Origin: Nereocystis luetkeana
Taxonomy: Eukaryota; Sar; Phaeophyceae; Laminariales; Laminariaceae
Direction: 5' to 3'
Assembly (NCBI GenBank): GCA_031213475.1
Contig: JARUPZ010000008.1
Coordinates: 12,457,938 to 12,521,937 of the forward strand
Length of the DNA stretch: 64,000 nucleotides
Of this stretch, positions 26,675-50,000 are shown in pieces. Position 1 is the stretch's first letter. Every line of letters starts with the position of its first letter. The notes below the pieces were generated by a model. That model did no database searches, was not told where the DNA came from, and saw only the letters and a program-made list of their open reading frames with translations. A program made the position numbers and the translations under genes.

Positions 26675-26791
26675 TATTACGGGGGACCATAGTTAACAGG
26701 ACCTATGGTACGCATAAAAACCTACCTGGTATATGTTTAACCATTTTTACTAATAATATTTGGTTCTGTTAACTATGGCCCCCCGTAATAG
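26675..26791. mobile_element. CGGGGG-end MITE copy 4, carries TACCTGGTA
   Basis: Ends TATTACGGGGGACCATAG and GGCCCCCCGTAATA. The inner part reads AAAACCTA-CCTGGTA-TATG where the copy at 48329 (reverse complement) reads AAAACCTA-TATG. Confidence 0.85.
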
Positions 26792-27114
26792 TAGCAGTAT
26801 GTTCGGCTGGGGTCAGGTTCGACAGCACGGGTGATTATGATAGCTCACACGACAGTACCTCCTCGTGACATCAACCATCTTCACTAAGGAAAAAATGCCC
26901 CCAGGCGGTGGAGGTATGCGGATACAACCGCGGGGATCGTGAAGGATTAAACGCGGATCCAAGCGATGCTTGCGCCGAGGTGATCTAGATGCAACTGCAA
27001 ATATATGATATGATATGACATGATACGACATACGGAGATGGTTGATGCTACATCCTGTTGTCGGGCGAGGGGGGGGCGAAGGGCGGGGGGGGGGGGTGCG
27101 GGAGCGGCGGACTC
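26792..27114. other. intergenic with G-rich tract
   Basis: ATATGATATGACATGATACG units at 27002-27025 are followed by a G-rich stretch (27066-27106). No gene was seen. Confidence 0.4.
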
Positions 27115-27211
27115 TAGTCCCTTTTTGAACCGCAGTCCCGTTTTGGGGACAAACTGCGTATAAATTGACCGGTTTGTCCCCAACACGGGACTGCAGTAAT
27201 AAAAGGGTTAA
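27115..27211. mobile_element. TTAA MITE copy 4
   Basis: Arms GAACCGCAGTCCCGTTTTGG and CCCCAACACGGGACTGCAG; right flank TTAA at 27208-27211, left flank degraded. Confidence 0.8.
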
Positions 27212-27879
27212 GATGAGCAGCGGAACATGCCGTCCATCGCCATCTATCAAGTAGCGGCGGCGGCATGGGTGTAGACCACGCGATGACGCCTAAGGGCCGA
27301 AGCCGTAACGGACCGTTTCAAGCTTCAAGCCCCCCTAACAGCACGGGAGCTGATAATACAACACAAGCCCCCGTCATGCGCACCACAGCACATATAAAAC
27401 GACGCGATGTTGACTTGAAAAAACACCACGATGTTCCATTTGGATGGGCAGGTAGGACGCAATCTTGAAAAAAAAAACGGGAAGGTTTCCATTTAGAGGG
27501 GCGTTTCTTTTTACCCGTCAAAATCGCAAGCGCGGTATACTGACACCCCTGAAAGGATAATTCCGTTACACCAGGGCGCCAAATCGTTCTGTGGGTGTTT
27601 TGAATGCGTGTTGGCTGGACGTCGAATCTTGGACACGCGTTCATCAATATCGTGCGAAAGGGATTTTCCGATTTGCATCGCACCAAAACAAAGGTACTAC
27701 TGTACCCTGTACTCCTTTCGAGCTGGCTGAAGGCGGGTTTCTACGACCGCTGACCGAGATTAATGTATATACGTATACGATCCTCCAAAAATCTCAAAAT
27801 CACACCATCGCACACTCTTGTTCGATTTTGTGCTGTCTGTCGCATCTCCTTCAGGGGAGCACGACACTTCCTCTTGATT
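27212..27879. other. intergenic, no gene recognised
   Basis: No conserved frame, repeat family or RNA gene was recognised. Confidence 0.35.
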
Positions 27880-28185
27880 TTGTGTTTTGCATTTGTTTTT
27901 TCGTTTTTTGTTCGTTTTGTTTCTCGTTTTTCTCACGTTTTTCTCTCTTTTCAACGTATCTGGATTGCTAGCACGTGTTATGTCGTGCCTGTCGTATCCA
28001 GTACGATGAGCAGGGCACTGCATTGTTTACACTGCTTACTGCACTACAATGTAGTCTCTACTGAGTCGTGGCTATGTGACCACAGAGCTTGCACGAGTAC
28101 TCGTATATCTCTAGGATGAAGAATCGGTAGGGACACTGGGCTTGCTGCATGTCGACGAGTAGAAAGAACGGTGTAACCCTCTTGG
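27880..28185 (+). repeat. LINE 3'-end repeat
   Basis: A pyrimidine-rich tract, then TGTCGTGCCTGTCGTATCC, the core to GCATGTCGACGAGTAGAAAG, ending ACGGTGTAACCC with no AC tail. Relative to other copies it has an extra CGAGTACTCG palindrome at about 28093 (CTTG-...-TATCTC). Confidence 0.75.
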
Positions 28186-28575
28186 GACTTGATGGGGGAA
28201 AAAAAACTGTAAAGCGTATCGATTACGGCACGGTCGCTGCGTGATTGGGGGATGATACAAACTGCCATAGTGCCCGAGATAAAATGTGACACCGCCGTTA
28301 CGAGACGTCCTGCACGGGCGCAACATGTTCCTCCTACCCGTCATGATAACGCCAAATTTATTTGTATCTTCATGTTGGTTGGTATCTCGGGGTTGTACCA
28401 AAGAGTTGGGTTAGAAGAACACCCACACACCAGTTTGTGATAAGGGACTGAAAAAAGGGACGCAGGACAACAAAATGTGTGACGGTTCACATTTTTTTAC
28501 GGGCGCCCTTGTGTATGCACAAAAATATTGCATGGGATCGGTATTAATACAAACAGCTGGTATTACTTGGAGCTA
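28186..28575. other. intergenic, no gene recognised
   Basis: Nothing with domain or repeat support was seen. Confidence 0.35.
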
Positions 28576-28691
28576 CTATTATGGGGGACCATATTAAATA
28601 CCTGGTAGGACCTACGGTACACACAAACACCTGTATATTTCGCTATTCTTACTAACAATATTTGGCCCTATTTACTATGGTCCCCCGTAAC
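28576..28691. mobile_element. CGGGGG-end MITE copy 5, carries TACCTGGTA
   Basis: Ends TATTATGGGGGACCATA and GGTCCCCCGTAACAG. It reads TTAAATA-CCTGGTA-GGACC where copies 1 and 2 read TAAATA-GGACC. Confidence 0.85.
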
Positions 28692-31419
28692 AGCGGTTGG
28701 ACAAACAGAAATTTGTTGTTGAGATCAGCTCCAGTAAACAAAATAAAAAAGGGGCAGCAGCAGCGAAATAGGAGTTGACGACAGTTGCACATAATCTGCT
28801 GCGGAGTTCCTAGCGACAGCTGTATAGAGTATACCACTCTGTCCGGAAATGCAACAACCGTTTTGGGTATTCATGTGAACACCCCTATTAATAGGTGTCC
28901 TAAAAAAAAATAGGTGTCCTCAATTTTTCGGCCAGAGAGGTGGTCTATTACCGGTGTCTTGGTATTCAAGCAAACGTACCGACTGGGTTGTAGTAGTCTT
29001 CGCAGCGATAGTCAGCGGACACCAAGTGGCAGACGATCTGGTGGCCATCTAAGGAGTAGTCTTGCCATTTTTTGGAAGACCGACCTTCCGAGAGACCGAG
29101 GACCTGAACGTGGATGAGCGTGGGTGTTCATGTATATGTAGCCGACGACAGACGGGGAGAAGCGAGGGAGGGTTAGGGGCAACAGTTACGATTGTGGGTG
29201 GAAGAAGTCGTGCTGAAACAGCTGCGTCGGGGAATTTAACGCGGCATATTCAAAAGAAAATCACAACATTTTGGCATACTAGGGTTTTCCTTGAGGCGGC
29301 ATACGCTTCAGGCTAACCGTTGCACGTAGCAAACCTGGTACCTGGTATGGCAAGATGCTGCTGTAGTATGAACAGTACCGTAGTACAAGTACTATGTACA
29401 GTATAAACAGTACTTCGAATTATGTAGTACCAGGTACACAGTTGTAGTGCAGCGGTAGTAGCAGTCTTACATCACTAGCAAAAACAGTATAATAGTAGTG
29501 GTAGTACAGCAGTACTATTAATAGTCGTAGTAGTAGTATTAGCACCACCACTACTTCTACAGTAAGCGTGGCAGTACAGCAGTAGAAATCGAAACACCCC
29601 ATCCTCGACTGCTGCGATAGCCTGGTTGGCAGCGCGTGCTTCCATTCCTAAACCAAACCGCTCCCGTTTCATCGCACTGCCGCGAAGAGAAGAACAGGGA
29701 TCCCCTTTGTTTTCTCCCAATAACTCAACAACGGCCCCTATACTATATACTTCGAGACTGGTTCTCTCACTCTGCCCTCTGTCCGGAAAAGCAAGCAAGC
29801 GTTTGGCTATCAATACTGAAAAAAAAGTGTTCCCACTTGTTGTTATTCCCACAACAACTTCCTTCGTGAAATATAAGCGCGGTGGCGCGCGAGCGACGGC
29901 ACGATCGACCGAGCGACCGAACGATCGCTCGAACACAGAAAAAAAAGAGAGAGAAATCCGCAGTCTAATCTACTACACCTGGAAGCGAGACCTCACTATA
30001 GATAGTCCAAGTAAATACGATATGCTGCGGCTTACGGCCTACATTAGGTTTCATTTATGCCCGCAAATGTAAGGATCGATTGTGTATAAATAGTAGAACC
30101 CACATCCTTACACTTCTGGGGTGGTATTATTAATAATAGGGTTCCTTCATAGGATTTTTGCCAAAATCAGATATAAATCAGATATACCTGGCCACCTTTC
30201 GGCCAAATACAGTTTCATGCTAAAAACAAGTACCAGTACAAAACACAACCCAGGAGCCCTGCTATTGGTCAGGCTGACATCGTAACTGATTTTGGCTCGA
30301 AAAGGCCAAGGTAGACCTGTTTTTTCTACTCTGTCTAGCTTTCAACTGATTTTGGCCAACTTTGAACCAATCAGAGAGCCCTACGTGCACTGTTTTTTCT
30401 CTCCGTATGCGTCTGCCCTCCCTCGGTTGAAATTCTTCTGTATCAACGTATAAACTCTGTACTCGTACGTCGTACGTAAAAGTACGTATTTATACATGCA
30501 TACAAGCGTACGCTGGTTTCACTTGGGGTGTGCGACGTGCTTCAGTATTTACGTACATAGTTGTTGTGATGTGCACTCTGTTGTGTTCTATGGTCACAGC
30601 AGTCTATACAGTATAATGGTCACACGGCAAATCGCCTGCACCACCCCACGCCGAGGTGGTCTCAGGTTTGGTTCGTACGTACTGCAAGATAATTTCGTGC
30701 CGAGCAGGCGGTTCCGCGAGGACGGTCTACTGCTGTATGTAGAAGATTTAAAGCTGTCAACGGGGGGGGGCGCCAGAGTAAATACTCTTGGCACCCCCGC
30801 CATGGCGAAACAAACGAGGCCTATTAATAGTAACTCTCTGCAGGTCCAAGTGGAGCCCGTGGTGTCTACGCCCTAAAGAAAACAAAAAAAAAACGGATTT
30901 TGGAGGCCATGTGGCACGCTTGATGCTTTAGGTGCATTCTTTTTTTACCGGACTTTCATGGACAGAACACCGCTCGTGGCGCGCGTTTTTTACTTGGTTT
31001 AGTACGTACCTGAATTTGGCTCACACGGATCAGGTATACCTGATTTTGGCATATGCCCTTAACAATAGTTTGTCCCAAAAATCTGGGCACAGCTGCAACG
31101 GAGTTGAAGACTATTAATACTACTGCTGTAAGCGAGCCAAACGGTATAATACCAGCAGCAGTAACACTTATTAATACTAATATTATGCTGTACTTCGTAA
31201 AGCATTGCAACCATTGTGTCTAGTACCAGGTGCAGCACGACACCGGTTACACTTATATGTAATACATGAGTAGTACAACATCCTTTAACAGGTCGACCAC
31301 CTAAACACATTTATTTCTGATGCACCCTAATCGTACCTCCCCATAGAAATGCTTCGCAAGAGGGAGGTCATGGACCGGGAAGGCATGATGGAAAGGTTGG
31401 AGGCTGTAGGAAAATGCGT
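28692..31419. other. long stretch without a recognised gene
   Basis: Several frames are open, including plus 30496-30876 with GLRFGSYVLQDNFVPSRRF and minus 29475-29936, but none has a known motif or both-sided splice support. TACCWGGTA (29337, 29430, 31219), ATTAATAG and TACAGCAGTA-type motifs are dense at 29340-29590 and 31100-31260. Confidence 0.35.
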
Positions 31420-31800
31420 GCAGCAGGACAGAGCAGGACAACGCAGGACAAATCAGGATGAATCAGGACAAATCAGAACAAAGCAGGATCAACCAAGACA
31501 AAGCTTGCAAGTCGGAGAGAAATTTGAACTTTACCCAATTATTGTACCGTCTATGATATCATCTTCGGTACGCACATCGAGGAGACGAAATACGATCTAG
31601 AAATTGTATTGTGCATAATTATTTATTTTCTGAAATCGGGGAGACGAAGTAGGACAAAGGACAAAAATGGCTACATCAGGACGAAGCGGGACAAATAATT
31701 TCAAAACGGTACAAAGCCCGAGAAACCAGAACACGGAGGAACACGGCTGAATAATTAATAAACAAAACGGGACAAAGCGGGACAAAGGAAAACAAGACTT
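31420..31800 (+). repeat. degenerate decamer array
   Basis: Loosely repeated AGGACAAAGC / AGGACAAATC units (31425-31505 and 31650-31795) are interrupted by about 140 bp of other sequence. Confidence 0.6.
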
Positions 31801-32179
31801 ATGAACACAGCGCCAGGCAGGGAGGGGGGGTCACGTGGCTCAGCGTTCGTCACGCACCTACACCTCGATGGTATTCACCGCTCCTTGATATCACTGTTGT
31901 ATAAATATTGCGAGCAGCATCCAGGGGAGTCACTGGCCTATATCCTTGACAAGGAAATACATACCTGGTACCTGGTACCTGGTATAGAATACGCGCGAAC
32001 GGCTTATCATAAAATTTGGAAATTCAGTAAAAATGGGATATAGACGAGACATATTACGCAGCTTGCAAAGTTGAGTATCAACCATGTAATCAGTCGAACT
32101 CACAGCTGACGTATTTCATAATTATAGTGCGAGTAGCGTTTCGCATGCGCCGTCCAACGATGGTCCAGTCGTCGGTCAC

Positions 32180-32830
32180 GAAAAGTTGTCCAAAGGAGTG
32201 CAAAACGAACAGACGTTGAATATCGGATATCGGATGTCGAACTATCGAATCGACTTCGACACACGAGAAACAAATGATCAAGCTGGGCGGAAATTCAAGG
32301 ATCGTGTATACATTGATAAGAATACCAACCGGTCCTTATATTTACGATCAGAGTTATTTGATACCTGGTACCACCGTGGGCGTAAATATAAGGATCATTA
32401 ATACATTAATATGAAGACCAACCGGCCCTCCTTTTTCCGACCAGAGTTATATGATACCAGTATCTGACACCACTCTGGCGGGAAATATAAGGTCCGGTTA
32501 GAAATTAATATGAAGACGACGCGGTCCTTATATTTTTGCCCAGATAGGTACTTGATACCTGGTACGGTTTCGATTATTGATATATGCATCGAAGCTCTCG
32601 TTCAATATCCGCACCGAAAAACACGTCGATATGCCAGGGAGTGGAGGGGCAAAACGCCTTCGATATAATACGATATGATCAAAAGCCCGATATTCCCAAT
32701 AGATCGACAGTTTCCATAGAATATCCAACACCGAAACAAAAACATATCGCCACGATATCCCTATATGTAAGGACCGTTCCCATACGAATACTAAATCAAA
32801 ACGGTCTCTATATTTAGGGACAGAGGGCTA
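32180..32830. repeat. AT-rich repeated block with (un)inverted units
   Basis: Units containing AAATATAAGGATC / GGTCCTTATATTT and TAATATGAAGAC recur at about 32290-32400, 32400-32470, 32480-32570 and 32755-32825 in both orientations. Two TACCTGGTA motifs sit in equivalent places (32363, 32562). Confidence 0.5.
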
Positions 32831-33063
32831 TTCGTACGGTATGATTGTAAGACGGTAGATCATATATCAAGGTACATGTAGAGCGCAGAACAAACTTGAG
32901 ACACGAGTTTCTCCAAAACTACCCGGGCGCACACAGCGAAAAGGGCGATGTTGGGAAAGGTTTCGTTAAAATCCTGTCGACAAGTTTCCGTAGCCACATC
33001 GCTCGGCGTTTTTAAACTCCCCATTGTCGAGAAAATTAGCTTGGGAATTCGTCCGAGATTATC

Positions 33064-33168
33064 TTGACCCTTTTCGTATACTACACTGCAGTCCTCCTTT
33101 CGGGACAAACCAGTCAAATTCTTACGTAAATTGTGCCCAAAACGGGACTGCAGGACTAAAAGGGTCAA
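33064..33168. mobile_element. TTAA MITE, diverged copy
   Basis: Bounded by TTGA and TCAA (mutated TTAA). The arms CCCTTTTCGTATACTACACTG and GGGACTGCAGGACTAAAAGG are recognisable. Confidence 0.7.
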
Positions 33169-33215
33169 ATGTCATTACACGGTAATAAATAGAATGCCGT
33201 CGTGCTCGTGCCTGG

Positions 33216-34449
33216 TATCACGGTGGACCATAGTTAATAGGACCTACGGTATAGACAAAAACCTATATAGAACTACATACTTAGATCACAACCCCTGAGC
33301 GTGCTCGGTTGGTGCGTCCCTGGCCTCTCAGAGCTCCCACTTCCAAACCGCCTCCTTTCATTACTTGCCGGACCTTTCCAGCAGTTCTTTGTTTTCTCGG
33401 TCCTCCTTTTTTCTTCTTTCGTTTCGTGTGCGTGCGTGTTCTCCGAGCACGGCATCGCGGGAGGACCCGGCACCGTCGCGGGTGTCAGCGGGTGCTGGCG
33501 GGTAGAGGGGGGGTTGCAAGGAGCGCGGTCGCCGCTTTCGTGCCTAGGCGTCGCGTGTGCCTCGAGACACGAGAGATGCATGAACGGGTTTTGTCTGGCT
33601 TCGATTTATGATTGTTGATAGAGTATGTACGAGTTATGAAGGTCGTGCAGGAGGGCAAGATAATATTCAAGCGGTGCTTATTTTTGCGACCACGCTGAAG
33701 TTGAAAGAGGGAGGTGTGCAGTTTGAACACCAACGTTATCGAGCTGGCGAACGACGGCCACGGTGAGCACCGGGCTTCACGCGAGGCGGGCGACGGGGCT
33801 GATTGTGGCAGAGAGTGATAAAAGCTTTACCTGGACCGAATCGGTAGCGAGGTGGTCGCGAGAGGGGCGGGCGGCGTAAGACGCTGAGAGAGAAGCTCTT
33901 CTGTGCGATTTTTTCTTTTCTTCTTTTCGACCGGGTTGCGGGTGTAAGGTGTTCCAATCAGGCAGAAAAATATTACACGAGAGGGGACGGGGATTTTTTT
34001 TCCTTTCCGAGTTTTCGGTTTCATTTTCATGGTTTTTGCTGCTGTAACGTGATATGCTTTCGCTTTCTTCGTACATACAGTACAGACATAGAGCATTTCG
34101 GAAGAAGAAAATAAGTACAGACAATAGTACCCTACCTGGGGGGTATGTACGTACGTACGACATCCGCGACGCGAAGCGTATATGTGGCATCCAAGCTGAC
34201 GTCGGAGCTGTTTTTTCCTGAAGCATGGCGGCGGGACTCTTGGCTCTATCAAGTCGCCGGTTTGCAATGACGATCCTTGAAAAAAACTAAACTCAATCGT
34301 GGACCTCTGTTCGCTTCGCATAGTTTGATGTACTTTTTTCCTTCCGGAGCGAGCGTAGCGGGCGGCGTAGGCCGCCCGCGGAGCGAAGCGCCTTGTATTT
34401 ACCTATTTTACTCACAATATTTGGTCCTATTTATTATGGTCCCCCGTAA
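33216..34449. mobile_element. CGGGGG-end MITE copy 6, split by a Helitron-like element
   Basis: The left part (33216-33267: TATCACGGTGGACC ... AAAACCTATA) and the right part (34396-34449: TATTTACCTATTT ... GGTCCCCCGTAA) rejoin to the uninterrupted sequence CCTATATATTTACC found at 34479. The split is exactly at the A/T between them. Confidence 0.85.
33268..34395 (+). mobile_element. Helitron-like non-autonomous element, copy B
   Basis: 1128 bp, collinear with 601-1716, from TAGAACTACATACTTAG to GCGAAGCGCCTTG, including the hairpin with stem GCGGGCGGC near 34358-34380. It is inserted in a MITE with either no target duplication (A/T site) or an ambiguous TA duplication. Confidence 0.7.
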
Positions 34450-34565
34450 AACATACAGTAAATATGATCAAATATCACCTATATATTTACCTATTTTTAC
34501 TCACAATATTTGGTCCTATTTATTATGGTCCCCCGTAAATATATAGTAAATATGATCAAATATCG
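34396..34565 (+). repeat. tandem duplication of a MITE right end
   Basis: A unit of about 90 bp (TATTTACCTATTT...ACTCACAATATTTGG ... GGTCCCCCGTAAA, then TAAATATGATCAAATATC) occurs twice in a row. Confidence 0.85.
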
Positions 34566-35064
34566 TACGTCCAACTGGCACATTTAAAGTCCTTTGGGCA
34601 CCATATCACAAGGCCGCCAAAGTAAAGGAGCTCCCCGTTGGCTGGGTGGACCCGGACGTCCAGTATTAACGTGACGGAGGAGATCCGCGCCGTCGGACCG
34701 AAAACCCCTGAAAAAAATATAGCTTCCGGAAAATAAAACGATTTTACTTTTTGCTGCTTTCCATCAGCGCACACAGCACACAGCAGCGTTGAGGGCTGTT
34801 ACAAAAAATCCACATATCGATGAGAATCTACCGTAGATCATCGTAAATCCTACCTGGTATATATATCTGCCGTTGTAAAATGCTGTGCGGGATATGTATC
34901 GTACAGATCCAACTCAGGGAATATGCGCTATTTTTAATAATAGATCAAGTACCAGGTATACTATACGGCAGAATATGCGGGTTCCACCCGGCAACATGAG
35001 CTAGATCATATAGATAATTCAGATCATACAAATAATGCAGATCAGGAATGTTTTTTTTTTGTTT
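34566..35064. other. intergenic, one short open segment
   Basis: On the plus strand 34570-34670 reads TFKVLWAPYHKAAKVKELPV to a stop at about 34668. I do not recognise it. TACCWGGTA occurs at 34852 and 34951. Confidence 0.3.
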
Positions 35065-35375
35065 TTTTTAGTCATCACTTTCACTTTCCAGCCTAACTCG
35101 CATATTGGAGGTTTTACCCTCAGCGATCTTCTGGACAAGCCGTGGTCACAGGTGCCGTCCCTTCTCCCCCCCGGTACGTGCCTTTATTTTTTTTTCGCGC
35201 ATAGGGTTCAGCATTCCCACTGCTCGAATTTCATCGAAATGTAGCTAACTCACGCTCTGGCGCTTTCCGCAATCATTTTTTTCTATGCAAGAAAAAGTCC
35301 ACTCGGTGAGACTTGAACCCACGAAATTGATCTTGATAGGCACGCGGACCACCCACCAAGCCACCGGGGACGCCA
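35065..35375 (-). mobile_element. SINE-C, minus copy
   Basis: On the minus strand: head with CCCCGGTGGCTTGGTGGGTG and GTGGGTTCAAGTCTCACCGA (A and B boxes), body (GGAAAGCGCCAGAGCGTG, CACGTACCGGGGGGGAGAAG, CCACGGCTTGTCCAGAAG), ending CACTTTCACTTT... as an A-rich 3' end at 35045-35080. Confidence 0.8.
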
Positions 35376-35623
35376 TCCATCTGCCCTGAAATATCTATTA
35401 ATAGATTATCACCAAGTGGAAATCAATGACCTGTCCGACGTGTGTGAAATTATTATATCTATCAGCGAGAGTTCCTATCAATGGCGATTGCTACCCTATC
35501 TTAGGGTACCAGGTGCCAACTATCGAATGTTTCCTGTGGCTTATCGGTTGACCCCTGCGGTAGGAGTGCTATCTGTGGTATGTTGCGCTCTTGCGTTTTG
35601 TACCGAACAGACAAATCTGAAAA

Positions 35624-35944
35624 ATGGGAACGAAGCCTAAAATGAGAACCAATCCGTATCTCCAGAACCATGTGGTGTATCAGATAACCCAAATGATCCT
35701 GCGAAACCCCTTGGCCAGCCCTGTGAGAGGAGCTCGTCAGAACGGTCATGCTCCATCTCGTGCCTTCGGGTGGGCGCAAAAAGCGATATACGCTGGCTCT
35801 ATTGTGATTTCTCTAGATGCTGGCTACCGCGGCGATGCCGAGGACTTCCAGCCTGAGCGACAGCTCATTCGAAGGCTGCTGTACAGCCCCACAGGACTGT
35901 CAACTTTTTTTCTTGGAGTTGTACACAATTGGTTTGCTTTCTAA
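35624..35944 (+). CDS. ORF of unknown function, 106 aa
   Basis: An ATG-started frame reads NPYLQNHVVYQITQMILRNP and GWAQKAIYAGSIVISLDAGY to a stop at 35942. Third positions show only a weak G/C preference, there is no known motif and no splice support. It may be non-coding. Confidence 0.2.
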   Translation: MGTKPKMRTNPYLQNHVVYQITQMILRNPLASPVRGARQNGHAPSRAFGWAQKAIYAGSIVISLDAGYRGDAEDFQPERQLIRRLLYSPTGLSTFFLGVVHNWFAF

Positions 35945-36224
35945 AAAAAAACGTCCGTTCCCATTTTTTGTTTCGTTCCCATTTTTCCGTTTTGTCTACC
36001 GGGGAGTTATACATACAGTAGGTGCCCCGAGTTAGGAGCATCCCGTGATGATCTTAAGCCGAAACAAGCCAATGCTCTTACTTGGCGATGTATGCCAGGT
36101 ACCTGGTAGGTTTTAGCACAGGCGGGGCATGCCGATTTGACCGCTTTACGAGTCCCGGAATATCGTTACTTGATTGGGCGCTCTAAGCTCGGGGCACCCA
36201 CTGCTACTGCTGCTTTTTTTGTGA

Positions 36225-36455
36225 TTGGCATTGAACCGTTATTTTTACCCGTCGACATCCAGCATCCAGCACACCCAGTAGTGTCCGTGCTGAGTGTTCA
36301 TCCTATTACGGGGGGCCATAGTTAACAGGACCAAATATTGTTAGTAAAAATGGTTAAATATATAGGTTTTTATGTACACCATAGGTCCTGTTAACTAGGG
36401 TCCCCCGTAATAGAGACTACAGAGATACAAGCTCTGTAGTTCCAATCAGCATTTT
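36225..36455 (-). repeat. LINE 3'-end repeat (minus) split by a CGGGGG-end MITE
   Basis: ACCCGTCGACATCCAGCA and GTGTCCGTGC, then the MITE (36304-36413), then AGAGATACAAGCTCTGTAG, all in reverse order relative to 8880-9000. Confidence 0.75.
36304..36413. mobile_element. CGGGGG-end MITE copy 7
   Basis: Ends CTATTACGGGGGGCCATAG and GGTCCCCCGTAATAG; clean inner sequence (AAAACCTATATATTTAACC on the minus strand). Confidence 0.85.
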
Positions 36456-36744
36456 CCCTTCGGGTGGTGTGTTCGTTTTCAAGCACCTACTGAAAACGTA
36501 CCGGAGCCGTGCTTACGCCTCGGCCAAGTTTCGGCAAGATCGGTGAAATATGCTTCGCTCTAAAACTTCAATCCTGCAACCCTGACCACCTGGGAAAATC
36601 CCGGAATTAAGCTGTAACCACAGGGAAAAATCTCACTATCATACTGATTTTGTCGAAACTGGGCCAAGCTGGCCGTGGTCAGTACGATTGGCGCAGGCTA
36701 CCAGCCCCTATTACGAGTATGAACAATGAGTAGTAGGATATCGT

Positions 36745-36855
36745 ACGATACAAGCTACCAGGTACCTGGTACCTGGTATCATGGTACCAGGTACCTGGTA
36801 GGTAAAACACCATGGTAACAGGTACGCACCTGGTACCTGGTATGAGGTACCTGAG
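36745..36855. repeat. cluster of TACCWGGTA units
   Basis: At least seven TACCAGGTA/TACCTGGTA units occur within 110 bp, several sharing their flanking TA so that the period is 7 bp and W alternates between A and T. Confidence 0.9.
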
Positions 36856-37604
36856 GATGGACTTATAAGCGAATCAGCCCTATCAGGCGATCTCGCGGGC
36901 GGCTGGATTATATGTGATAGTGTTAGCCTTCAGCACTCGTGACCATGTCGGACGATACACTTGTCGGTATCTTGCGATTTCACAGTACAGCAGCAGCGAC
37001 TGGTACCCGAGTATCGTCGTACCAGCACCAGATACACCGCCGTGTGTTGACGTCACACACTGCTGTGATGAGCTATGTACCAGTCAGCATGTGACATCAT
37101 ATAGACACACTTACCGCGAGAGGGATCACCGCCGTAAAACACGCAGTTAATGAAACACACCGCCAGGAATGAATTTCCCGACACTAGTTTCTCCGTGATT
37201 AGGGGGGGGGGGGTACACAACACAAGGATGGCAATTTTTTTTGAGAATATTTATATACATACCGGTACCTGGTAGGTATGTACTGTACATCGCTCGGCGT
37301 TTGCTCCCTCCCCGTTGTGGAAAAAAACAATGTGAAAATTCGTCCGAAGTTGTGGTGTCTTGCGCGTTACCGTAAACAGACTGAACGGGGAGGGTTGAGT
37401 TCGCAAAGGCAGCAGGGGTGGGCGAGTGGGTTGTGCGATCGATTTTCAGCGCTCGATTTTTCCCCGCTAACTAACCGAGGGAAGGAAGGCTGCCACAATA
37501 AATGCCGAACCAGTTATTATCGGAAAATTAGAGCCTTCCGAAAATATTTTGTCAACTATGCAGGTCTGATTCATGTTAATAGCACGTTCCATGTTTAGAG
37601 AAGG
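36856..37604. other. intergenic with a degraded repeat related to 48025
   Basis: 37285-37570 contains scattered blocks (TTGTGGAAAAAAACAATGTG, GATCGATTTTCAGCGCTCGA, GCCTTCCGAAAATA) shared with 48025-48325 and 32940-33060. No gene was seen. Confidence 0.4.
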
Positions 37605-38880: not shown

Positions 38881-38928
38881 GGGAGGTAGAGCATGCATCT
38901 ATAGAAAAAATGAAGACCATCTAGCAAC

Positions 38929-39509: not shown

Positions 39510-39790
39510 TTCATGCTTCCCTCGTGACTCGGTGTACACGCGACGCCTAGCCACGAAAACGGCGACCGCGCTCTTTCCAACCCCCTCTCTATCCGCCAGC
39601 GCCCGCTCACACCCGCGACGGCGCCGGGCTCGCCCGCGGTGCCGTGCTCTGGGTATACGCACGCAGACAACACAAAGAAAAAAAAGGAAAAAAAGCAGGC
39701 TCTCGCCGGCAAGTAATAGTGGAAGGCGGTGTCCAAGTGGGAGCTCTGAGATGCCAGGGATGTACCAACCGAGCACGCTCAAGAGGAATG
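39510..39790 (-). mobile_element. 5' fragment of the Helitron-like element (minus)
   Basis: Reverse complement of about 620-920 of copy A: CCAACCGAGCACGCTCA, GGAGCTCTGAG, GCACGGC/GCCGTGC and CGACGCCTAGCCACGAAA are shared with some divergence. Confidence 0.7.
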
Positions 39791-40039
39791 TATCTGTAGG
39801 CAAGTCTATATGAGTATCATATGATCGGAATAAGCGCTGCACATCGTCAGATGGCAAACGGAATAAGAATATACCTGGTAAATATTCGACTTTAGTTCGT
39901 AGCTGCTATATACCTGTCATAGTGTTGTCGAGAAAACGAGTGCTGAAAAACGGTCGCACCCCCCTATTGCCTGTACAACTAAACGCTCTATATTTAAGGT
40001 ATACAGCAGTACCTGGTACGGCACATACTGATGTTTGTT

Positions 40040-40365
40040 ATGAGGATTAAAGGATCGGTCTTTTACCCCTATAGCTCCGTACCAACTCCTTCACATTTGA
40101 CGTCGTCGAGGACACGGGTTCGAATCTCACTTCGAACCTTTCTTGTATCTAAACGCTTGCTCGCGCGTGCGTCCCTAAAAACATATCTCCCTGGTGCCCA
40201 GGTATTGAAACGAAGCGGGTAGGTCAGAGGACGGCCGCAAATGGTACCGGCGCCTCGAAAGACCCCGCCGTTCAGAGGGGGGGAGAGTGTTAAAAGGATT
40301 ACTCTGGGCTGGGTAATCGATCGGCCTTTTACCCCTATACGAGCTCAGCAGGTAACTCCTTCACA
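40040..40365 (+). mobile_element. SINE-B, second tandem head-body-head copy
   Basis: Same order as 23750-24095: a tRNA-like segment (CTATAGCTCCGTACCAAC, GGGTTCGAATCTC), body (AACGCTTGCTCGCGCGTGC, GACCCCGCCGTTCAGAGGGG), then GGATTAC...GGGTAATCGATCGG and a truncated second head. Confidence 0.75.
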
Positions 40366-40379
40366 TCTACCACACGGCA

Positions 40380-40640
40380 CTATCATCGTACCAGAGTGTC
40401 ATATGTCATTGCACCTGTATCATAGCATACCAGTACTTGCTGTACCCACGGCGATACTGCAGCCACGAGGACCTTTCCTTCTCTCTGGTCATGATTTACT
40501 ACTGTATCATACCACGCCAGTGCTTGCTGTACCCACGGCGATACTGCGATACTACCTGAACCATACTTCACAGATACCATCGCGGCAGCAGCTTTAAAGC
40601 CTCACGGCCACGAGCCACGAGTACCCTTCTGTCTGGTCAT
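40380..40640 (+). repeat. tandem repeat of about 85 bp
   Basis: CTTGCTGTACCCACGGCGAT occurs at 40437 and 40524, and CTGGTCATGATTTAC at 40486 and 40633, with TGTATCATA...CCAG between. Confidence 0.7.
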
Positions 40641-41225
40641 GATTTACGTACATAAGAATACTCGATGTGTTTCTAAAATATCGGATTTTATACATTCGCG
40701 TTGTGTCTCCAAACACGGAATTTCCAACGGTTTCTACAACTAACTGTAGTATTAATAGCGCCTACATCTCCGCCCCGAGTGTCCATGAGCATTGCTGCTG
40801 CTACAGCGCGCAGATCAGTATCCCCGCGAAACAAGGCTGCAGCAGCAAGCAGATGGCGACATGTTCTGACCGGTTTGAATGAAGGCCATGGGATTCAAAA
40901 TATTACTTGAAATTTGAACCAAGCTGAACAAGCAGCAAGGGGTAAGGGGTTGACAAAATAAGGCTTGAAGATCCAAAATCAGTTCAACCCAGAGGCACAC
41001 AGTAAAATCGATACCTGTCCGATCCCCGCGTCGCCAGAGGCCTGATCACAGCGAGTGCAAGCAGAGGCTTGACCAGCACCAGTGCCATAAAGCCAATAGG
41101 AATCTTCATGCTGAGCTGAGAGAAGCAAAATAGACTGCGTTGTGCTGCATTCGCCCTCAACAAACCCTGTCCGAGGCCCTTGCCCGTAACGCATAGTGTA
41201 ATTATGGAACTCCATTGAAAATTGA
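40641..41225. other. intergenic, no gene recognised
   Basis: No domain-bearing frame or repeat family was recognised upstream of the FNIP gene. Confidence 0.35.
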
Positions 41226-41276
41226 ACAAAAAGTCTGTGGTGCCTACAATACGTAGCGGTAGCGTTTAGGCCGGCC

Positions 41277-44200
41277 GTGCGCCGTCAAGCTTGCTCGCCA
41301 GCGTGCCCCAGACTGCGAGGCTCCACTTTGGGTGGTGGGGAACCCGTGTTCATCCCAATGATATCACGCGAGGTGACAGGCGACCGAGCTGTTGCCCTGA
41401 ATCCGCCACCGTCTCCACTCGCAGCACTCCGGGTTGTGGTAAGCTTGGGCTGGGTTTCTCGCGTGACCTCCCTCCAGCTTGCATCACTAGAGCTCCTCGT
41501 GGCTTGCCGGGAAGCGTCCAACTTCCGACTGAAGGTGGCACGCAAGACACCCCGTAGAGTATGGCAGGCCAAGTTCGGCGCACGCAGCAGCTCGGAGTGC
41601 AGCGGTGGAGCGCTACCGGAGGGTAGGTCTGAGCGTTTGATACTTCCACGAGTGACGAGGATGATCTACGACAGGCCAGGTTTCGACCTAGACCCCGGAT
41701 GGGCCCTACCGAACGAGCTCGTGCGGTTGATTTTGGGAACGCAGTTCGGCGGAGAGATGGAGGGGGTGGTATGGCCGTGTGCGCTGGAAAGCGTGGTATT
41801 CTGGCGAAGGTGGGTACGCAGTTGGTGCGTAGTTCAGCGAGAGACTCTGGGTTGGATTGTGTTCCATGTATAGGTTGTTTGCTACGTCAGCACATTTACG
41901 CCAGATGTCAGGTCCAGGACGGGCCATTTTATATGCATAGAAGTATCACAGATCAGCGTAGCAGCATAGCGTGCAGGGTGAAGAGCGGTTGCTCGGCACG
42001 CGGGTCTTAGTGAAACTTCTTCGAGCTACGAGTATAGGTTAAATTGGCACACGACACGGCGGTAACGTGATTTTTACCAATCCGCCGGAGGATTAAATAT
42101 ATATATACCAGGTATATATCGAGTATAGATGACCCACTCCGCTTCCTGTCGATCCCCGTCAATAAAAAATCCACGGAGTGAGGCCATCCTTCAATCGAAC
42201 ACGGGGTTTGTCGGCTAGGCACGGGCCGGGGCCGGGGCGGCGCCCCGACCCGCTCCCCGCCGGCCTGCCTGTGAAGTTTGGTGATAGGAATTTGTGTTCG
42301 TACGTAGTGTCTTCAATTGGCCACCAATCGCAAAACTCCACGTACTGCTGCTGTGTTTAGTGTGTGCAGCAGTAGTAGGGTCTATCCCTTCATCGTCCTG
42401 CAGTTTGTACTGAAGACTCGAAGAACAAGAACGTCAGTACGTACTATTAATATTAATAGTGTACTTCTCGTAACAGTGCTGGTGCTGCGGCGCGGTCGCC
42501 TCCGTGCGTGCGTTTTGTTTTCCGATCCTTGTCCAACCTAAAGCAAATATGTCAAGCGGCGTAACCTGTATCGTTTCGTCTTTGGCGTTACATTTCGGAT
42601 GTGCATCATGGATCATGGACTCATCACGACTCATGTCATGGGGCCATGGACCACGACGATTGATTGTGCTTCACATCAGACGGAATGACGAACGACCGGC
42701 TGAGCCACTCCACTTCCTGGCGATTCCTCTAAATCAATAGTCCACGGAGTCTGAGAGGCCCTACACGCACACGGGTTTGCCAGCTGGTCGGAGCATCCCC
42801 GACCCGCTCCCGGCCTCCTCGCCTGTGAAGTCCCAAGCGTGTGTTCGGCCTTCCCGAATTTATGATGGCAAGGTACACAGCAGCAGCGGCTACGAGCCCG
42901 GAGTGTGTGTTCGATCGTCGTAAACAGCTGGCAAGGAAGATAGCGGCAGAGCGAGGCTGGCGCACATGATTTGAAGATTTCGCGTATGTTGAGCTTTTTA
43001 TGTTTGCAAAGAAGAGACAGGGCTAACCCGAGCTCACTGTGTACCTTTCTGTTTCCAGTTATTCATGACGACCGAGCACACGCTTGGGCCTTGTAGCCAC
43101 CGCTGCTGCTGCTGTGTGCCTTGCCACTTGTTCCGGACTACCGAACACACGCTCATGCCTCGTAGCTTCAAGCTCGGGTCAGCTCTTTCCCTTTTTCTCT
43201 TCTACAATAGACTCTTAAAGAGAAGCGAAATCCTCATCCCGATCAAACCATGCGCTCGAGCCTCGCCCTGCTGCTGTCTGCCTTACAGCACGCTCGGGGC
43301 TCGTAGCCGCTGATTGCCTCTGTGTACCTTGCCACTTCTAATCGGGGCGACCGAACTCATGCTCGGGCCTCGTAGCTGCCGATGAGAAGGACTTGCAAAT
43401 GCCAAAAGCTTAGCGGTGCAGGAAAAACTATGCCGAGCCAGAGTGATGAAGTATATTCGTACCTGATGCTCAAAATTACGGTAGCTTGCACGAGTAGGGA
43501 ACGCCCCCCCACCCCCTCCTCTCATCCCCCCTCCCCCCTGCCTCCTGCCCCCCCTCCTATGCTGCCGCCGTGAACACCCACAACCCACACAACGCGCCAC
43601 AAGGTTCAACCGTGCGATCGACAGGGTGGAGTGGCCCCGCTCGCTTAAAACGCTCACGTTCGGCTGCAACTTCAACCAGCCCGTCCACGCGACGATGTGG
43701 CCTCCTCGCTTGGAAACCCTCACGTTCGGGAGCTGGTTCGACCAGCCCTTGGCTGGAGCCGAGCTTCCCCCCGAGCTAACACGCCTTACTCTAGGCCGGG
43801 ACTACAACCAACCGCTTGATGGGATCGTTTGGCCGAGGGGGCTCGTCCATTTATCTCTCGGTTTTTTCTTTAACCGATCACTCGAGGCCGCCGCGCAAAA
43901 CTGGCCGAAAACGCTAAGAACACTGTCCCTGGGCGACTGCTACAATCTTCCCATCCAGGGCGTGGCTTGGCCTGATGGTCTGGAGAGCATAGCCTTCGGC
44001 CGGGGGTTTAACCATAGCGTGGAAGGCGTCGCCTGGCCGGGCTCCCTCACGAGCGTGAGGTTCGGAGGGATGTTCAACAAGGACATCGCCGGGGCGGGGT
44101 TTCCCGAAGAGATGGAGACGCTGGAGCTCGGGTTTTCCTTCAATAAGCCGGTCGTTGGCGCCGCCCTGCCGGATGGCTTGAAGCGGCTAGTGTTTGGGGA

Positions 44201-44666
44201 GGAGTTCAACCAGAACGTGGAAGGCGTTGTTTGGCCCGCGGGGTTAGTGGAGATGGTTTTCGGCGTGCAGTTTGACAGGCCGGTGGCGGCGGCGACGTGG
44301 CCCCGCGGCCTACAAAGGTTGACGTTTGGCGAGAGTTTCAACCATCCTATCTCGGGCATGGTTCTTCCGGACGGACTGGAAGAGATCACCTTCGGGAAAG
44401 TGTTCGACCGCGAGATAGAGGGGGTGCTGTGGCCGCCCAGCGTGGAAATCATGGTGTTCGGCGAGTGCTTCAACCAGGCCGTGGCCTCGGTGGAATGGCC
44501 GGTGTCGCTCCGAAAGCTGCTGCTCGGCTGCGAGTTTGATCACAGCTTAGATGGTGTAGTGTTCCCGCCGGGTCTTGCTAGGGTGGAGTTTGTGGATAGC
44601 TATAGGCGGGTGCGGGAGGAGCGCCCTGGTAGTGTGGCCGCGGCGGTGCCGTCCAGGCAAGAGTAG
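41277..44666 (+). CDS. FNIP-repeat protein (22-residue repeats), two exons
   Basis: This is a solenoid-type repeat protein of unknown role. Exon 43604-44666 holds about fourteen 22-residue units of the pattern L..L.FG..FN.P(I/V).G..WP.G (for example LTFGCNFNQPV, LSLGDCYNLPIQGVAWP, VFGEEFNQNVEGVVWP), ending AAAVPSRQE and a TAG. The upstream frame 41226-41809 contains two more clear units (LVRLILGTQF...VVWPCA, LESVVFW). The donor CGAAG/GTGGGT at 41809/41810 and the acceptor CACAAG at 43603 join to give VVFWRRFNRAIDRVEWPRS, which restores both reading frame and 22-residue spacing. The true start lies in or before 41277; no ATG in context was found, and the repeats there decay, so the 5' end may be pseudogenised. 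No signal peptide was seen. FNIP repeats are known from slime moulds, giant viruses and brown algae. Confidence 0.8.
42128..42830 (+). repeat. paired repeat inside the FNIP gene intron
   Basis: 42128-42275 and 42699-42830 share ordered blocks: CCACTCC-CTTCCTG-CGATTCC, TCCACGGAGT, ACACGGG-TTTG, CCCCGACCCGCTCCC, GCCTGTGAAG. Confidence 0.7.
42840..43385 (+). repeat. array of diverged units of about 70-80 bp inside the FNIP gene intron
   Basis: GACCGAACACACGCTCGGGCC-TCGTAGC-type blocks recur at about 43070, 43138, 43283 and 43348, followed by TGTGTACCTTGCCACTT-like blocks. Confidence 0.6.
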
Positions 44667-44886
44667 GCGTTCTACTGTAAGTTTTGATGTCTCGAATTTA
44701 GTTTTATTTTCGTTGTTGTGAGAGCTATTTTATTTATTTTTATTAGTACCGGGTGCTGCAGTTGTGCTTCGTATCATACCAGGTATGTGCAAGTAAACAT
44801 TGTAGCTGTTGCCCGGTTTCTTGAAGAAAGTAGCCGGACTGATGCCGAGGTGCGTGGGGTTGTGTGGCGTGTCCGGATGGCGATAT

Positions 44887-45923
44887 TAGAGTGTTTGCGA
44901 GAAGAGGTAAGAAAAAAAAAAACTTTACTTGCGCTAAAAAAAGTGAATTTCCTTCCCTTCCTGATTTCGGTGTGTTTGCGAGTGAGGTAAATCAAATCCT
45001 GCAGGCGACGCCTCCGAAAATAAGAAGGGAAGGGGGGAGGTGAGGCAAACGCGCCGAAAAATAGAACATAAAACTAAAAAACAGCTTGGGAGTAGCAACG
45101 GCGGCCCAGCAACGTTTCGGCGGCAGAGTTGACAGCGGTGCCACCACTGCCAGCCCACGACTGCAAGCAGCAGCAGCGCAAGCGGCAGCTAGCAAGCGCT
45201 AGCCGCAGCTAGAGGCAGCTTGAGCAACAAAAATAAACAGCGTCAGCACCAGCACCAGCAAGCACCAGCACCAGCCAGCTTCCCTTTTTGGATTGCCTGC
45301 TGCTGCTGCTGCTGCGCTCAGCCTACGCACGCCACAGCGCCGGCGGGCTCCGCTCCGCCGCCACTGTCGCGGCCACTGCTGCCGCCGCCGCTGCTGCTGC
45401 TGGTGCTGCTGCTGCAGTGTGGTGGAATCGAAATGATACACGAGCTGTCGCGCTCTGTGCGAGCACGAGTACGAGTACGAGTGTGATGCGAGTCCTTTTT
45501 TGGAACGAATCATCCTCCACGTCGTCACCAAGTAGGCGAAAGCGTGTACCCTACGTAGCAGCGGCGGCGGCCCGCTGGCACAATCCAACGCCGCTCGTGC
45601 GCGCTATACTCAAGCTACACCTCTCGAGCCTCTGTGCTCCCAGCGGTTGTTGTGATGCGTACAGCAAGCAGCATGGTGGCATGGAAGATGCTCGGTGTTT
45701 TGATCCTCCGAGATTTGAGATGATGCGTTTTGCGTCGGGATAATGGTCGGTGCGTGTAGGCCAATGAGACAGAGAGCCAAAGTTACCGCAACTTTTGATG
45801 AAATCCTGACTTCGCTGAAGTACTTTTTCGCGTTTTTTTTCAGAAATTTACCTCAAAAAGTTACCTCGGGAGAATTTTTGGAGAAGTAAAAGTAAAAAAA
45901 AAAAAATCGCAAACACTCTACCA
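44887..45923. mobile_element. TIR element, hAT-like ends (1.04 kb)
   Basis: It starts TAGAGTGTTTGCGA and ends TCGCAAACACTCTA; a second inner GTGTTTGCGAG lies at 44971. It follows 220 bp after the FNIP stop codon. The terminal sequence links it with 11707-12639. The interior is rich in GCTGCT/GCAGCA and has no transposase; no clear 8-bp target duplication was found. Confidence 0.65.
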
Positions 45924-47076
45924 GGTATTGTTTGCTGAATATTTTCTAGGACATAAAACTGCACACAGATGGGCCCTTCGGCCGAATGGCAGAGCTCAAC
46001 ACGCCGCACCCCTCTAGGTGGTGGAATTTGGCGCAGGCGGACCACGTGTGTTCCGCCTGTCGGTACTCGTGGCCGTTCGGGGGTCAATCGTTCGGGATCG
46101 CTTGACGTATCAAAATTTGATAATTTGGGCGTTGTCATGCCTGGCACGGGTATAGGCAAAGAAAAGGGAAACCAGCGAGACAGACGATATGTAGGTTTCC
46201 GTCACAGGAACCGCAGATGTATCTGTGCTGTACAATTCACGCCCCGAAAAAAAAACAAAAACATGATGCCGAGTGTACAAAGACGAAAGTACCTGGTATG
46301 CTGGTAGATACTGCTGTTTACGACTGGTCGTCCGATTCCACCTCTTCTGCATGCACGTACGCAAATCACAACCCCACAATCACCGTAAGCTGGTAAGTAT
46401 CGACCGCGTTGATGAACATCCGCGGCCACGGAGAAGAAATGCCGAGCAAACCAAAACCAGGCATACATGTGCGTTCGTATACCGGGTAAAATGGAATATG
46501 CCAGTATACCTGGTACTGTCTACGGCTATTAATAACTGTCCCAATCGCCGAAAAAAAACGACCGACCCACCCACTGGGGAGTAGAAAGCGGATGCACTCC
46601 ATTGGCGTCCAATACCATAACAAGGACCAGCATACTGATACTGTCCATGGCATGTCTTCCCATTCCGCAAGAAGAAAAAACAGCGCACTGGGCACCAGCA
46701 CACGGATGCATTTTATTGGCGCGCGAAAATCAAACCAGTACACTGGTACACCATTCCAAGTTCTTCCAAGGCTTCCATGTGACTGCTTACGTGTACATCC
46801 TGAAGCTCTACACATGGGACACGCCTGATAGTCCAGATAGATCAGATAGATCCTATGCCCGTTCCATGATCTAGATATTTCCGGGAAGACATTTCCTTCA
46901 TTATTTGTATGATCTCGACGACCTAGTTCATGTTCCGGGTACATAAAATCCACATCCGACGTACTTTCGACAAAAACGCCTTGCTTGCACGGCGGAAAAA
47001 ACAAAGAGAAGCTCGACACGCCTCCATTTCTTGGCGCAAAGCGTACGTTTGTATAGCGTCAACTCCATTATGGTCG
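45924..47076. other. intergenic between two convergent genes
   Basis: No gene was recognised. 46540-46900 has paired short repeats, including AGATATTTCCGGGAAGACAT, which recurs at about 51940 and in part at 57370. Confidence 0.4.
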
Positions 47077-50000
47077 TCAGAGGGCCGTCCCCCTCTCCAG
47101 GTTTTGCCTGATTTCCACCGTGTACTTGTCGTACGCGCGCTTGATCTTCTTGTTGAAGTGCTTGTTTCTGTCGTTGATGTAGTCGATATCCGCCGCGCCG
47201 TGCTCCGAGCGCCGCCTGCTGAACGCCGCCTTACGTTTCTCCTGCACCCATCGCCATACCACGGACGGGGGAAGCAAAATCCACGAGGGAGGATAAAAAA
47301 AACACAAGGTTGCCAGGGGTATTCGAGAAAAACAAACAAACCACGAGGGAGGAAAAAAACACACACAGGGTTGCCAGGGGTAATCGAGAAAAACAAACAA
47401 ACACCACGCCACTTTTTTTTTACTCTTAAGACAGGTGGGTGGGGGGGGGGGTTACTCATGTGATGCATGGCTGTAGTCATATGACCATAGAGCTTAGCGT
47501 CCCTACAATGCCGGGACGGAAAACATCGGGTTTTCATCGACCAGGCAGATATTTTTTTGCACCAAGCGCGACGCGCCGTGAGGTGTCGGGTGAGCGGTAT
47601 GAAGGGTGAGCTGCATTCTACAAAGAACTGCTTGTGAGGCGGACTCTCTAAGGGGTATACATCCTCATTTTGACCTTGGGAAGGAGAGTAGCTCCTTTCA
47701 TCTTGTTTTCGTGTACCAGGTACTCTATTAGACTATAGTAGGGGTTACCACCCTCTTTTCCGACATATCGACCACCGTTAAATTACCCATACAAGTGCAT
47801 GAGCTTCGTCGGCAGGTTTCAGCACCATAACGACGCGGGTTGACATCAACAAGACCGTTTATGCAATCATACGATTTAGTCTCCTGAAAATGAACAAATT
47901 AATTAATCCATACTCAAATAAAAAAAATCACTAATAAATTGAATCCATGCTTTTACCCATAGGCGTTTTTTGGTCGATACTTATTCGGAAGTACTTACCT
48001 TGAGAACGTTGACTTCGCACAGGGGTGCGGCCTTTTTTCAGAACCCGAATTTTCCAGAGCGGGAAGGTTGCCAATAAATACCGAATAACTTGTATTCGGA
48101 AAGATCTGGTCCAGAGCCTTCCGAAAATAGAATGTTCAACTTTATTAGCACCCTTACTGTTGTCGAGAAAACGACCGCTGAAAAACGATCATACCTCTGC
48201 GCCCATACGGGTGCGATCGCTTTTCAGCGCTAAATTTTTCCAGAACGGGAAGGTTGCCAATACGGAATAACAGCATATTCGGAACTTCACTGGTCCAGGG
48301 CCTTCCGAAAACAGAATGTTCGACTTTACTACTACGGGGGATGATAGTTATTGGGACCCAATATCGTTAGTAAAAATGGTTAAACATATAGGTTTTTATG
48401 TATACCATAGGTTCCATTAACTACGGTCCCCCCGTAATAGCAGCCTTACCGTTGTCGAGAAAACGAATGCTGAAAACGATCATACCAGGTACCTCTGTGC
48501 GAAGTCAAGGCTCTTTACGGTAATAGCGGTATATAGGGGATGCGGGGGGGGGGGGGGGGGTGCATACATTTCATGCATGACCGTACTGGTGTGACCATAG
48601 ACCCCCGCATGACGAAGGAGGGGGGGGGGGGGGGGGTACTCATTACATCATTATCATGCATAGCCGCAGTCGTACAGCGAAGTATGACCATATATACCCT
48701 CGCATCCCTACAATGCCGGGACGGAGCACGTCGAGTTATCACACGACCAGGCAGACATTGCGTGCACCAATCGCGAAGCGCCGTGTGGTGTAGGGCGAGT
48801 CGCACGAAGGGTGAGCTGCATCCTACTAAGAACCGCTTGTGAGGAGGACTTGTATATGGATGACAGCTTCAATGAGTTACTCTCATTTCCGGTGTGGACA
48901 CTACCAGAAACAGCAATGGGGGGTACTATGTAACTGCCTCTTGGGTGCCTTACGAAAAACACTACCTGGTACGTGATACGATCAATTCCCTTGTGCAGAG
49001 TAGAGGTTCTCCACCCCGCACGAATTATCTAACTCGACCACCAGCTGTGACCGGCTGCCTAAACAAACAAACAAAAACGGTGCCCTGGTAGTCTAGCTCA
49101 AGTAGCGATCGGCATGTTTTACAGTGTCGTTGCCAACCAACACCAACCCAACCATTTTATAAGGCATAATAAAATATATAGGGGGAAGGGGTATACCCAG
49201 GGTATGGACAGGAATAACCCGAGCATTTTCAGGTAAGAGTTTACCAGGTAGTCTACATACCCCGTCAAAAGGAGTGTAAATGGTAGGCTCAAGTACAGTA
49301 CCGTAACAGAGACATGGTGATACATACAGTATTAAGTTAGGCTCTAGTACTGCAAGAAAATAGCCTGCTTCACAGCAGCAGCAATTGGTTTGACTGTTGA
49401 AACATGACACTATGCTGTGGTACCTTACGCACTAACTGTAACAACAAATCATTAATATACACAGCAGCGGCGGCAGCAGCAGCAGCAGCAGCAGCAGCTG
49501 GTTTGACTACTGAAGTAGGACACGATGCTGCCGTACCTTATCCATGAGCTCGTCCACAACTCGCTGCATCCCCTTCGCGTCCGCGTCGTCCTTGGCACCG
49601 TACTCTGCCGTGTCCTCCTGCACGCCACACATCAAAGACAACCATCAAAGACAACACCGTCAGCTCAAGGGGAGTGTGTGGGGGATATCCTGCCACGCGT
49701 CAAGGTCGCACGTCTCATCAGCAGCACATGGGGGAGGAGGGGGGGGGGGGGGGGGGGGGGCATCATGTCACGCACCACAGGTGGCAGGAGATAACACAAC
49801 ACCGTTGCGTTGGAGAGGGGGAAGGAGGGGGGGCCGAGGGCAGCACCAACTTTGCAAACACAGATACCAATAAAACCACTAGCCCCAGCACCAAAAAGCA
49901 CGAACAATAACACACGAGCACCAGCACCACCACGACCAACACGTCAAAATCACCAGCACCATCACCACCGCAACTACACCAGCCAACCTCACCACGAAAA

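Follow-up and report, generated by a model that had tools for sequence, protein, structure and literature searches.

The genome of the brown alga Nereocystis luetkeana carries the nine-base palindrome TACCWGGTA (W being A or T) at 182,395 places, and this word is a derived insertion at TA, not an ancestral form from which bases were deleted. It was studied in a 64,000-nucleotide stretch of contig JARUPZ010000008.1 (positions 12,457,938 to 12,521,937, assembly GCA_031213475.1), hereafter the window, and in the 465 Mb assembly of 1,987 contigs that includes it. Finer counts were made in a sample of 264 kb (21 stretches from 16 contigs), extended to 299 kb and 305 kb. The word is probably the scar left by excision of a Tc1/mariner-like cut-and-paste transposon that targets TA and has 5'-CCAG ends, its parent element being unseen.

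TACCWGGTA stands far above expectation by every count. Its reversed-word control occurs 1,744 times in the same 465 Mb, and its density amounts to about one per 2.5 kb of genome. The window holds 50 exact copies, against 0.49 expected from base composition and 0.43 from dinucleotides, while the 264-kb sample holds 126 against 2.6 under an order-2 Markov model. No 9-mer of that sample is more frequent, once runs of poly-C, poly-A and trinucleotides are set aside. With C or G at the centre, just 8 copies occur in 305 kb (2.9 expected). The word was found in 20 of the 21 sampled stretches, and its counts in 142 bins of 2 kb (mean 0.89, variance 1.93) show clumping. The original prediction had placed the feature at 26700-48500; it is indeed present there, but confinement to that interval does not hold, TACCWGGTA being genome-wide. 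Decay of the word can be gauged from 64 excess one-step neighbours, taken over eight positions, beside 134 exact copies in 305 kb. Ignoring variant scars, this puts the change at each position very roughly at 6%, which would make the scars neither brand-new nor ancient.

Sister copies of repeats reveal the gain directly. Two repeats carry much of this evidence: MITE-A, a resident miniature inverted-repeat transposable element (MITE) of about 106 bp that reads TTACGGGGG..CCCCCGTAA between TAs, and repeat B, which is unrelated to it. The scar sites from which a seven-base gain had been predicted were all found (TACCTGGTA at 26723, 28599 and 10692, TACCAGGTA at 48483, and at 19366 the variant TACCAGTA, described there as six bases long), as were the plain-TA sister copies at ~48189, 289, 1932 and ~8800 and in the MITE copy at 48332-48437. 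The scars in question are the following (LINE, long interspersed nuclear element).

26723..26731, plus strand: TACCTGGTA scar in a MITE-A copy (26672-26793), with plain-TA relatives in 11 alignments and a genome-wide site test
28599..28607, plus strand: TACCTGGTA scar at another TA of a MITE-A copy (28576-28693), with 15 plain-TA alignments
10692..10700, plus strand: TACCTGGTA scar within a dispersed repeat close to a LINE, the copy at ~8800 having plain TA
48483..48491, plus strand: TACCAGGTA scar in a local repeat, the sister copy at ~48189 having plain TA
48963..48971, minus strand: TACCTGGTA (TACCAGGTA on the minus strand) at the tested TA of repeat B, seen in alignments and the site test
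19366..19373, plus strand: TACCAGTA, a four-base variant scar at the MITE-A TA equivalent to 26723, seen in alignments

Self-alignment of the sample produced 29 seven-base gaps, with CCWGG at TA in 12 rows that include shifted duplicates of one event, and a good plain-TA relative was aligned for eight distinct scar loci. Site tests then recorded, across the genome, what lay at one particular TA of each repeat, allowing inserts from 0 to 8 bases, with the first 100 matches listed per test. At the MITE-A site there were 5,552 matches on both strands, scarred copies included, and none in the control. The listed matches, all from contig C1, comprise 92 with plain TA, four with CCAGG, and one each with CCTGG, CCGGG and CCGG; the remaining row has CCTGG one TA further on, and all eight inserts are of the CC..GG type. 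Repeat B gave 1,989 matches, again with none in the control. Its listed matches, from C1 and C2, comprise 82 with plain TA, seven with CCTGG, six with CCAGG, one each with TTAA, CTAGGG and GCG, and two with short duplications. CCWGG thus makes up 13 of the 18 listed inserts, and every insert starting with CC is an exact CCWGGTA. Read on one fixed host strand, the central W is unbiased among these matches (7 T vs 6 A). Because plain TA is the majority form at both sites, TACCWGGTA was gained rather than lost, and the gain at TA duplicates TA, as had been predicted; the converse, an ancestral TACCWGGTA, which would have told against the prediction, was not seen at either repeat. A single MITE-A TA carries four scar types (CCTGG, CCAGG, CCAG and CCGG). 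A looser search for the MITE site in the sample gave 22 places, of which 13 are empty, two have CCAGTA and one each has CCTGGTA, CCAGGTA and CTCCGGAGTA; the other four look like mis-set anchors. Another pattern, GGTTAAAYATACCAGGV, with 11 matches, addressed the second TA of the MITE site and was not used.

The composition of variant scars suggests how the parent element may have ended. Among words lying between TAs in 305 kb, CCWGG occurs 134 times. CCAG or its complement occurs 33 times (9.0 expected), CCAGGG or its complement 11 times (0.9 expected) and CCGG 15 times (4.9 expected), while CCTG (9 vs 12.8 expected) and CCTGGG (0 vs 0.9) are without enrichment. The same asymmetry appears in 100 listed non-T continuations at the MITE site, tallied by eye: CCAGGG 83, CCAGGC 8, CCAGGA 4, CCTGGG 4 and CCTGGC 1. 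A constant CCAG with flexible additions fits an element starting with CCAG whose ends were trimmed or retained in part, and the parent's end most likely reads CCAG(GG). The ends had been proposed as CCA...TGG; the variants sharpen this to CCAG(GG), although no element with such ends was found in the scans described below.

Further support comes from MITE-A, a sister element of known ends. It has the inverted repeats, TA duplication and plain-TA empty site (one such site) of a TA-targeting MITE, and its termini, TTA..TAA, would leave TTAA as a scar. No 8-base palindrome of the 264-kb sample is more enriched than TATTAATA, which occurs 63 times against about 1.2 expected (69 times in 299 kb), for example at window 29516, 31112 and 60644. 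Gains from TA to TATTAATA were seen within MITE-A itself (window 1973) and at the tested TA of repeat B (1 of the 100 matches listed), and TATTAATA looks like the excision scar of MITE-A. The excision-scar logic of the prediction therefore holds where the ends are known, and this match between TTAA scars and a resident TA-flanked MITE supports the same reading of CCWGG. The copies concerned are listed here.

48332..48437, unstranded: TA-flanked MITE-A copy of the TTACGGGGG..CCCCCGTAA type, its empty sister site at ~48147 being plain TA
1973..1980, unstranded: TATTAATA, a TA-TTAA-TA insertion within a MITE-A copy, the scar expected from MITE-A ends
36303..36413, unstranded: scar-free MITE-A copy, the reference form

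Taken together, a mechanism may be proposed in which a transposon inserts at TA and duplicates it, its ends beginning with 5'-CCAG and probably reading CCAGG or CCAGGG. Upon excision, a few terminal bases would stay next to each TA. Either the CCAG overhangs would pair (C:G, an A:A mismatch and G:C) or one five-base end would be kept, leaving CCAGG or CCTGG between the TAs, and each cycle of insertion and excision would add 7 bp. The preferred target would be a palindrome in which A is avoided after TA and a further TA lies seven bases off on each side. Since the scar sets two TAs seven bases apart, it could attract new insertions and so give rise to tandem arrays. The growth of arrays through target preference is our inference, as are the overhang chemistry and the existence of a parent with its transposase.

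The target preference itself can be read from the flanks of the scars. In single CCWGG scars, A after TA is avoided (5% vs 19%, 202 flanks), and a further TA stands at +6/+7 in 61 of 236 scar flanks (26%) as opposed to 7.6% for TAs in general (p 1e-17, provided the flanks are independent). The bases between these flank TAs are, by eye, mostly unrelated to CCWGG, and the TA-spaced flanks are therefore not simply decayed scars. The target of CCWGG is thus palindromic, with TA at +/-7. TTAA scars have a different target logo, with G at +1 and T at +2.

Tandem pairs of scars number 15,917 genome-wide, against 2 for the control; these are few relative to 182,395 scars, so most scars are single. The centres of 59 listed pairs, all on the plus strand of contig C1 and classed by eye, are AA in 23, TT in 17, AT in 14 and TA in 5, the order of AT versus TA not being significant (p 0.06). 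A simple microsatellite was considered and rejected on the ratio of pairs to scars and on the 19 of 59 listed pairs whose centres differ. The scar's own TA spacing would draw new insertions and drive the growth of arrays, examples of which lie in the window.

31962..31984, plus strand: three scars in tandem (T,T,T)
36756..36800, plus strand: five-scar compound array with A and T centres mixed
52853..52868, plus strand: tandem scar pair
60291..60306, plus strand: tandem scar pair, T then A
18416..18435, unstranded: TACCAGGGTATACCCTGGTA palindrome, either two six-base variant scars or a 16-bp end-to-end remnant

Several results weigh against an excised CCAG-ended transposon, and foremost among them is that the parent element is missing. 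Scans for terminal inverted repeats were made with TACC..GGTA, with general TA-flanked ends and with TACCAG..CTGGTA, and they recovered MITE-A along with other repeats; within the 264-299 kb covered, up to 0.06% of the genome, they brought up no element with CCAG ends. The TA-flanked elements with CCAGG/CCTGG termini and a DDE transposase that had been proposed as the source were accordingly absent from the scans made. Pairs of TACCAG..CTGGTA do exceed their controls in 299 kb (11, against 0-3 for each of four control words, themselves less common by a factor of 2-3). As elements these 11 pairs were rejected, nearly all of them beginning at scars and none extending into a convincing repeat. 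Left junctions at the MITE site offer a second view, with 142 being non-canonical (115 + 10 + 17). No resident CCAG element was seen among the 64 of these that were examined, which comprise 20 CCAGGG, 17 CCAGGTB, 10 CCAGM and 17 other junctions. Nearly all 64 are scars or decayed scars in MITE-A. Two junctions (L043 and L057) lie outside any MITE; at L074 no return to the MITE occurs in the short stretch read, and at L082 another dispersed repeat adjoins the scar.

Transposase profiles were searched as well. A DDE_3 (PF13358) profile search of the genome gave 0 matches where its control gave a signal, while Transposase_1 (PF01359) gave 0 matches with a control that was silent too. The pogo-type DDE_1 (PF03184) profile has 28 matches in the genome. 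At ten pogo-type loci (L021-L030), a search limited to exact 10-base seeds found no CCAG-ended terminal repeats, nor did the multi-copy DDE_1 remnant L031 yield any; the long inverted repeats at L029 and L030 are of a different kind. Among the large insertions listed from comparisons of repeat pairs was a 1.1-kb TA-bounded insert inside a MITE-A copy (window 33269-34396), whose ends are not inverted and which is no candidate for the parent. Because so many scars (182,395) require a very large number of past insertions, the missing resident element counts against the transposon. Its absence can reflect a rare active parent, an extinct parent, excision in the sequenced tissue, or a system that never had a long parent.

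The scars themselves add further difficulties. Among the matches listed for repeat B, 5 of 18 inserts are not CCWGG. Between TAs in 305 kb, the words CAG (125 vs 39.5), CCG (95 vs 39.2) and CCA (71 vs 37.6) are enriched and unexplained; they may be shorter relatives or marks of other elements. At 5 bp, with 4- and 6-bp variants, the main footprint exceeds the 2-4 bp given for Tc1/mariner in the part of PMC7913693 drawn on here. Finally, neighbouring tandem scars share the same W in 40 of the 59 pairs listed (p 0.009 vs half) and differ in the other 19. Since W is shared above chance, arrays probably owe their growth in part to repeated insertion and in part, for some of them, to slippage.

Could the scars have arisen with no parent at all? 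A tiny insertion system, the alternative already offered with the prediction, might add CCWGGTA at cut TA sites, either as a transposase-like nuclease that joins end fragments or through templated or terminal-transferase addition at breaks. It would account for a parent going unrecognised in up to 299 kb and in the 64 junctions, for a unit so uniform that all 13 CC-starting inserts listed for repeat B are exact, and for the existence of tandem heptamers. However, CCAG and CCAGGG variants unaccompanied by CCTG or CCTGGG fit a longer end that was trimmed, the analogous TTAA scars correspond to an element that does reside in the genome, and a palindromic target preference is typical of transposase integration. 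The mixed A/T neighbours among the listed pairs also fit simple templated addition poorly, and such a system is considered unlikely. A variant of the transposon reading keeps the parents in the germ line and has them removed, through excision that is programmed or highly efficient, from the tissue or life stage that was sequenced. Scars do far exceed elements at the MITE site (8 per 100 matches listed, beside 0 elements in the 64 junctions), and a W decided anew at each event would be unbiased, as observed. The same data are accounted for by a parent that is extinct or active at low copy number, though, and no such terminal-repeat elements were recognised in the sample even as relics, leaving this variant rather improbable.

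Two remaining possibilities concern how the word spreads. If repeat copies had received their scars from a handful of master copies, already scarred themselves, the number of events would be far smaller, and many MITE-A copies are indeed scarred at the same TA. Several scar forms at one TA, in two unrelated repeats, and scar contexts that are otherwise varied across the sample make this very unlikely. A motif under selection, as a structural or protein-binding site, and spreading by substitution and drift, in the manner of the comparable HIP1 motif of cyanobacteria, would suit a perfect odd palindrome found in nearly every sampled stretch, but clean seven-base gains at TA between sister copies, in place of substitutions, and four scar types at one MITE TA render it exceedingly improbable.

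The excised transposon, then, is the preferred reading. Extending it is a good deal more speculative: the transposon possibly survives almost only as its ~180,000 scars, either by inserting and leaving quickly or as a TA element whose excision is tissue-programmed, with scars breeding scars and seeding seven-base tandem repeats. We offer this extension tentatively and hold it more doubtful than probable.

Other marks at TA were noted alongside CCWGG. The non-palindromic words TACAGCAGTA/TACTGCTGTA (37 vs 0.6 expected in 264 kb) and TACGAGTA (60 vs 8.8 expected in 264 kb), noted at window 226, 3181, 13744, 29505 and others, are possibly the marks of other TA elements. Palindromic inserts of the form TA-CTCCGGAG-TA and TA-CTTCGAAG-TA in MITE copies (L015:1710, L053 and L045) suggest still further element families. 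Within MITE-A copies, a CCCTAA telomere-type repeat run lies beside one scar, after which the MITE resumes (L055), and a dispersed repeat with a TTCGAGCCCCAGG-like box lies beside another (L082). A similar repeat near window 13911 was also seen, and this repeat is possibly a tRNA-derived short interspersed nuclear element. Elsewhere in the window are a LINE-like open frame with endonuclease and reverse transcriptase domains (4432-7281) and an open frame with FNIP repeats (43485-44660). In the assembly at large, rbcL is found in about a hundred small contigs from C62 upward (131 matches), its product being a Rubisco large subunit of the red type, with 8bdb_A as the best relative of solved structure; with rbcL on each of them, many unplaced contigs are probably plastid DNA.

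Excision scars are usually counted singly in assays, whereas here they form a fossil log of insertions and excisions that is readable against dated repeats. From scars alone, such a log would yield the rates and target preferences of a transposon, and its arrays would show how transposition can found new tandem repeats. As a seven-base gain shifts the reading frame, the scars also supply small mutations in large number and in one direction. The log raises the question of why so active a system has so few resident copies.

Among known systems, Tc1/mariner is the closest point of reference. Like CCWGG, it combines a TA target and its duplication with a few terminal bases kept between two TAs, and the part of PMC8151067 drawn on here derives its footprints from 3' overhangs cut inside the element. 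Sleeping Beauty leaves CAG, while the CCWGG scar has five bases; about 180,000 scars, a parent not found and a target with TA at +/-7 likewise set CCWGG apart from Tc1/mariner. Insertion at TA with TA duplication, as in Tc1/mariner (IS630), was found in two repeats, and terminal inverted repeats matching the scar were absent from the 264-299 kb and the 64 of 142 junctions. Given that neither terminal repeats nor a matching transposase were found, and that the footprint is too long, CCWGG is not to be filed as a member of that group. In Ectocarpus, Mariner-Tc1 copies are mostly non-autonomous miniature elements according to the available portion of PMC12477816, and we suppose that these families are probably a lineage related to the CCAG element. 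The word "footprint" is absent from the main text of that paper as available, and no such scar is described in that portion. Genome-wide scars of this kind were not found reported in the accessible portion of the open-licence literature, where the listed titles of papers containing TACCAGGTA are on unrelated subjects.

MITE-A resembles the CCWGG element in its TA target and in a palindromic scar (TTAA) of terminal bases, and differs from it in having thousands of resident copies, as against none seen, and another target logo. The Stowaway MITEs of the Triticeae, as covered in the portion of PMC1925063 used here, likewise leave terminal-repeat fragments between TAs at empty sites and insert repeatedly at one TA, even beside an earlier footprint. 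Those footprints were studied in single genes with the element still present in some species, whereas the CCWGG scars are genome-wide with no element seen. Set against what the accessible open-licence literature holds, what appears to be new is the scale, together with a parent that is missing and a target spacing that renews itself.

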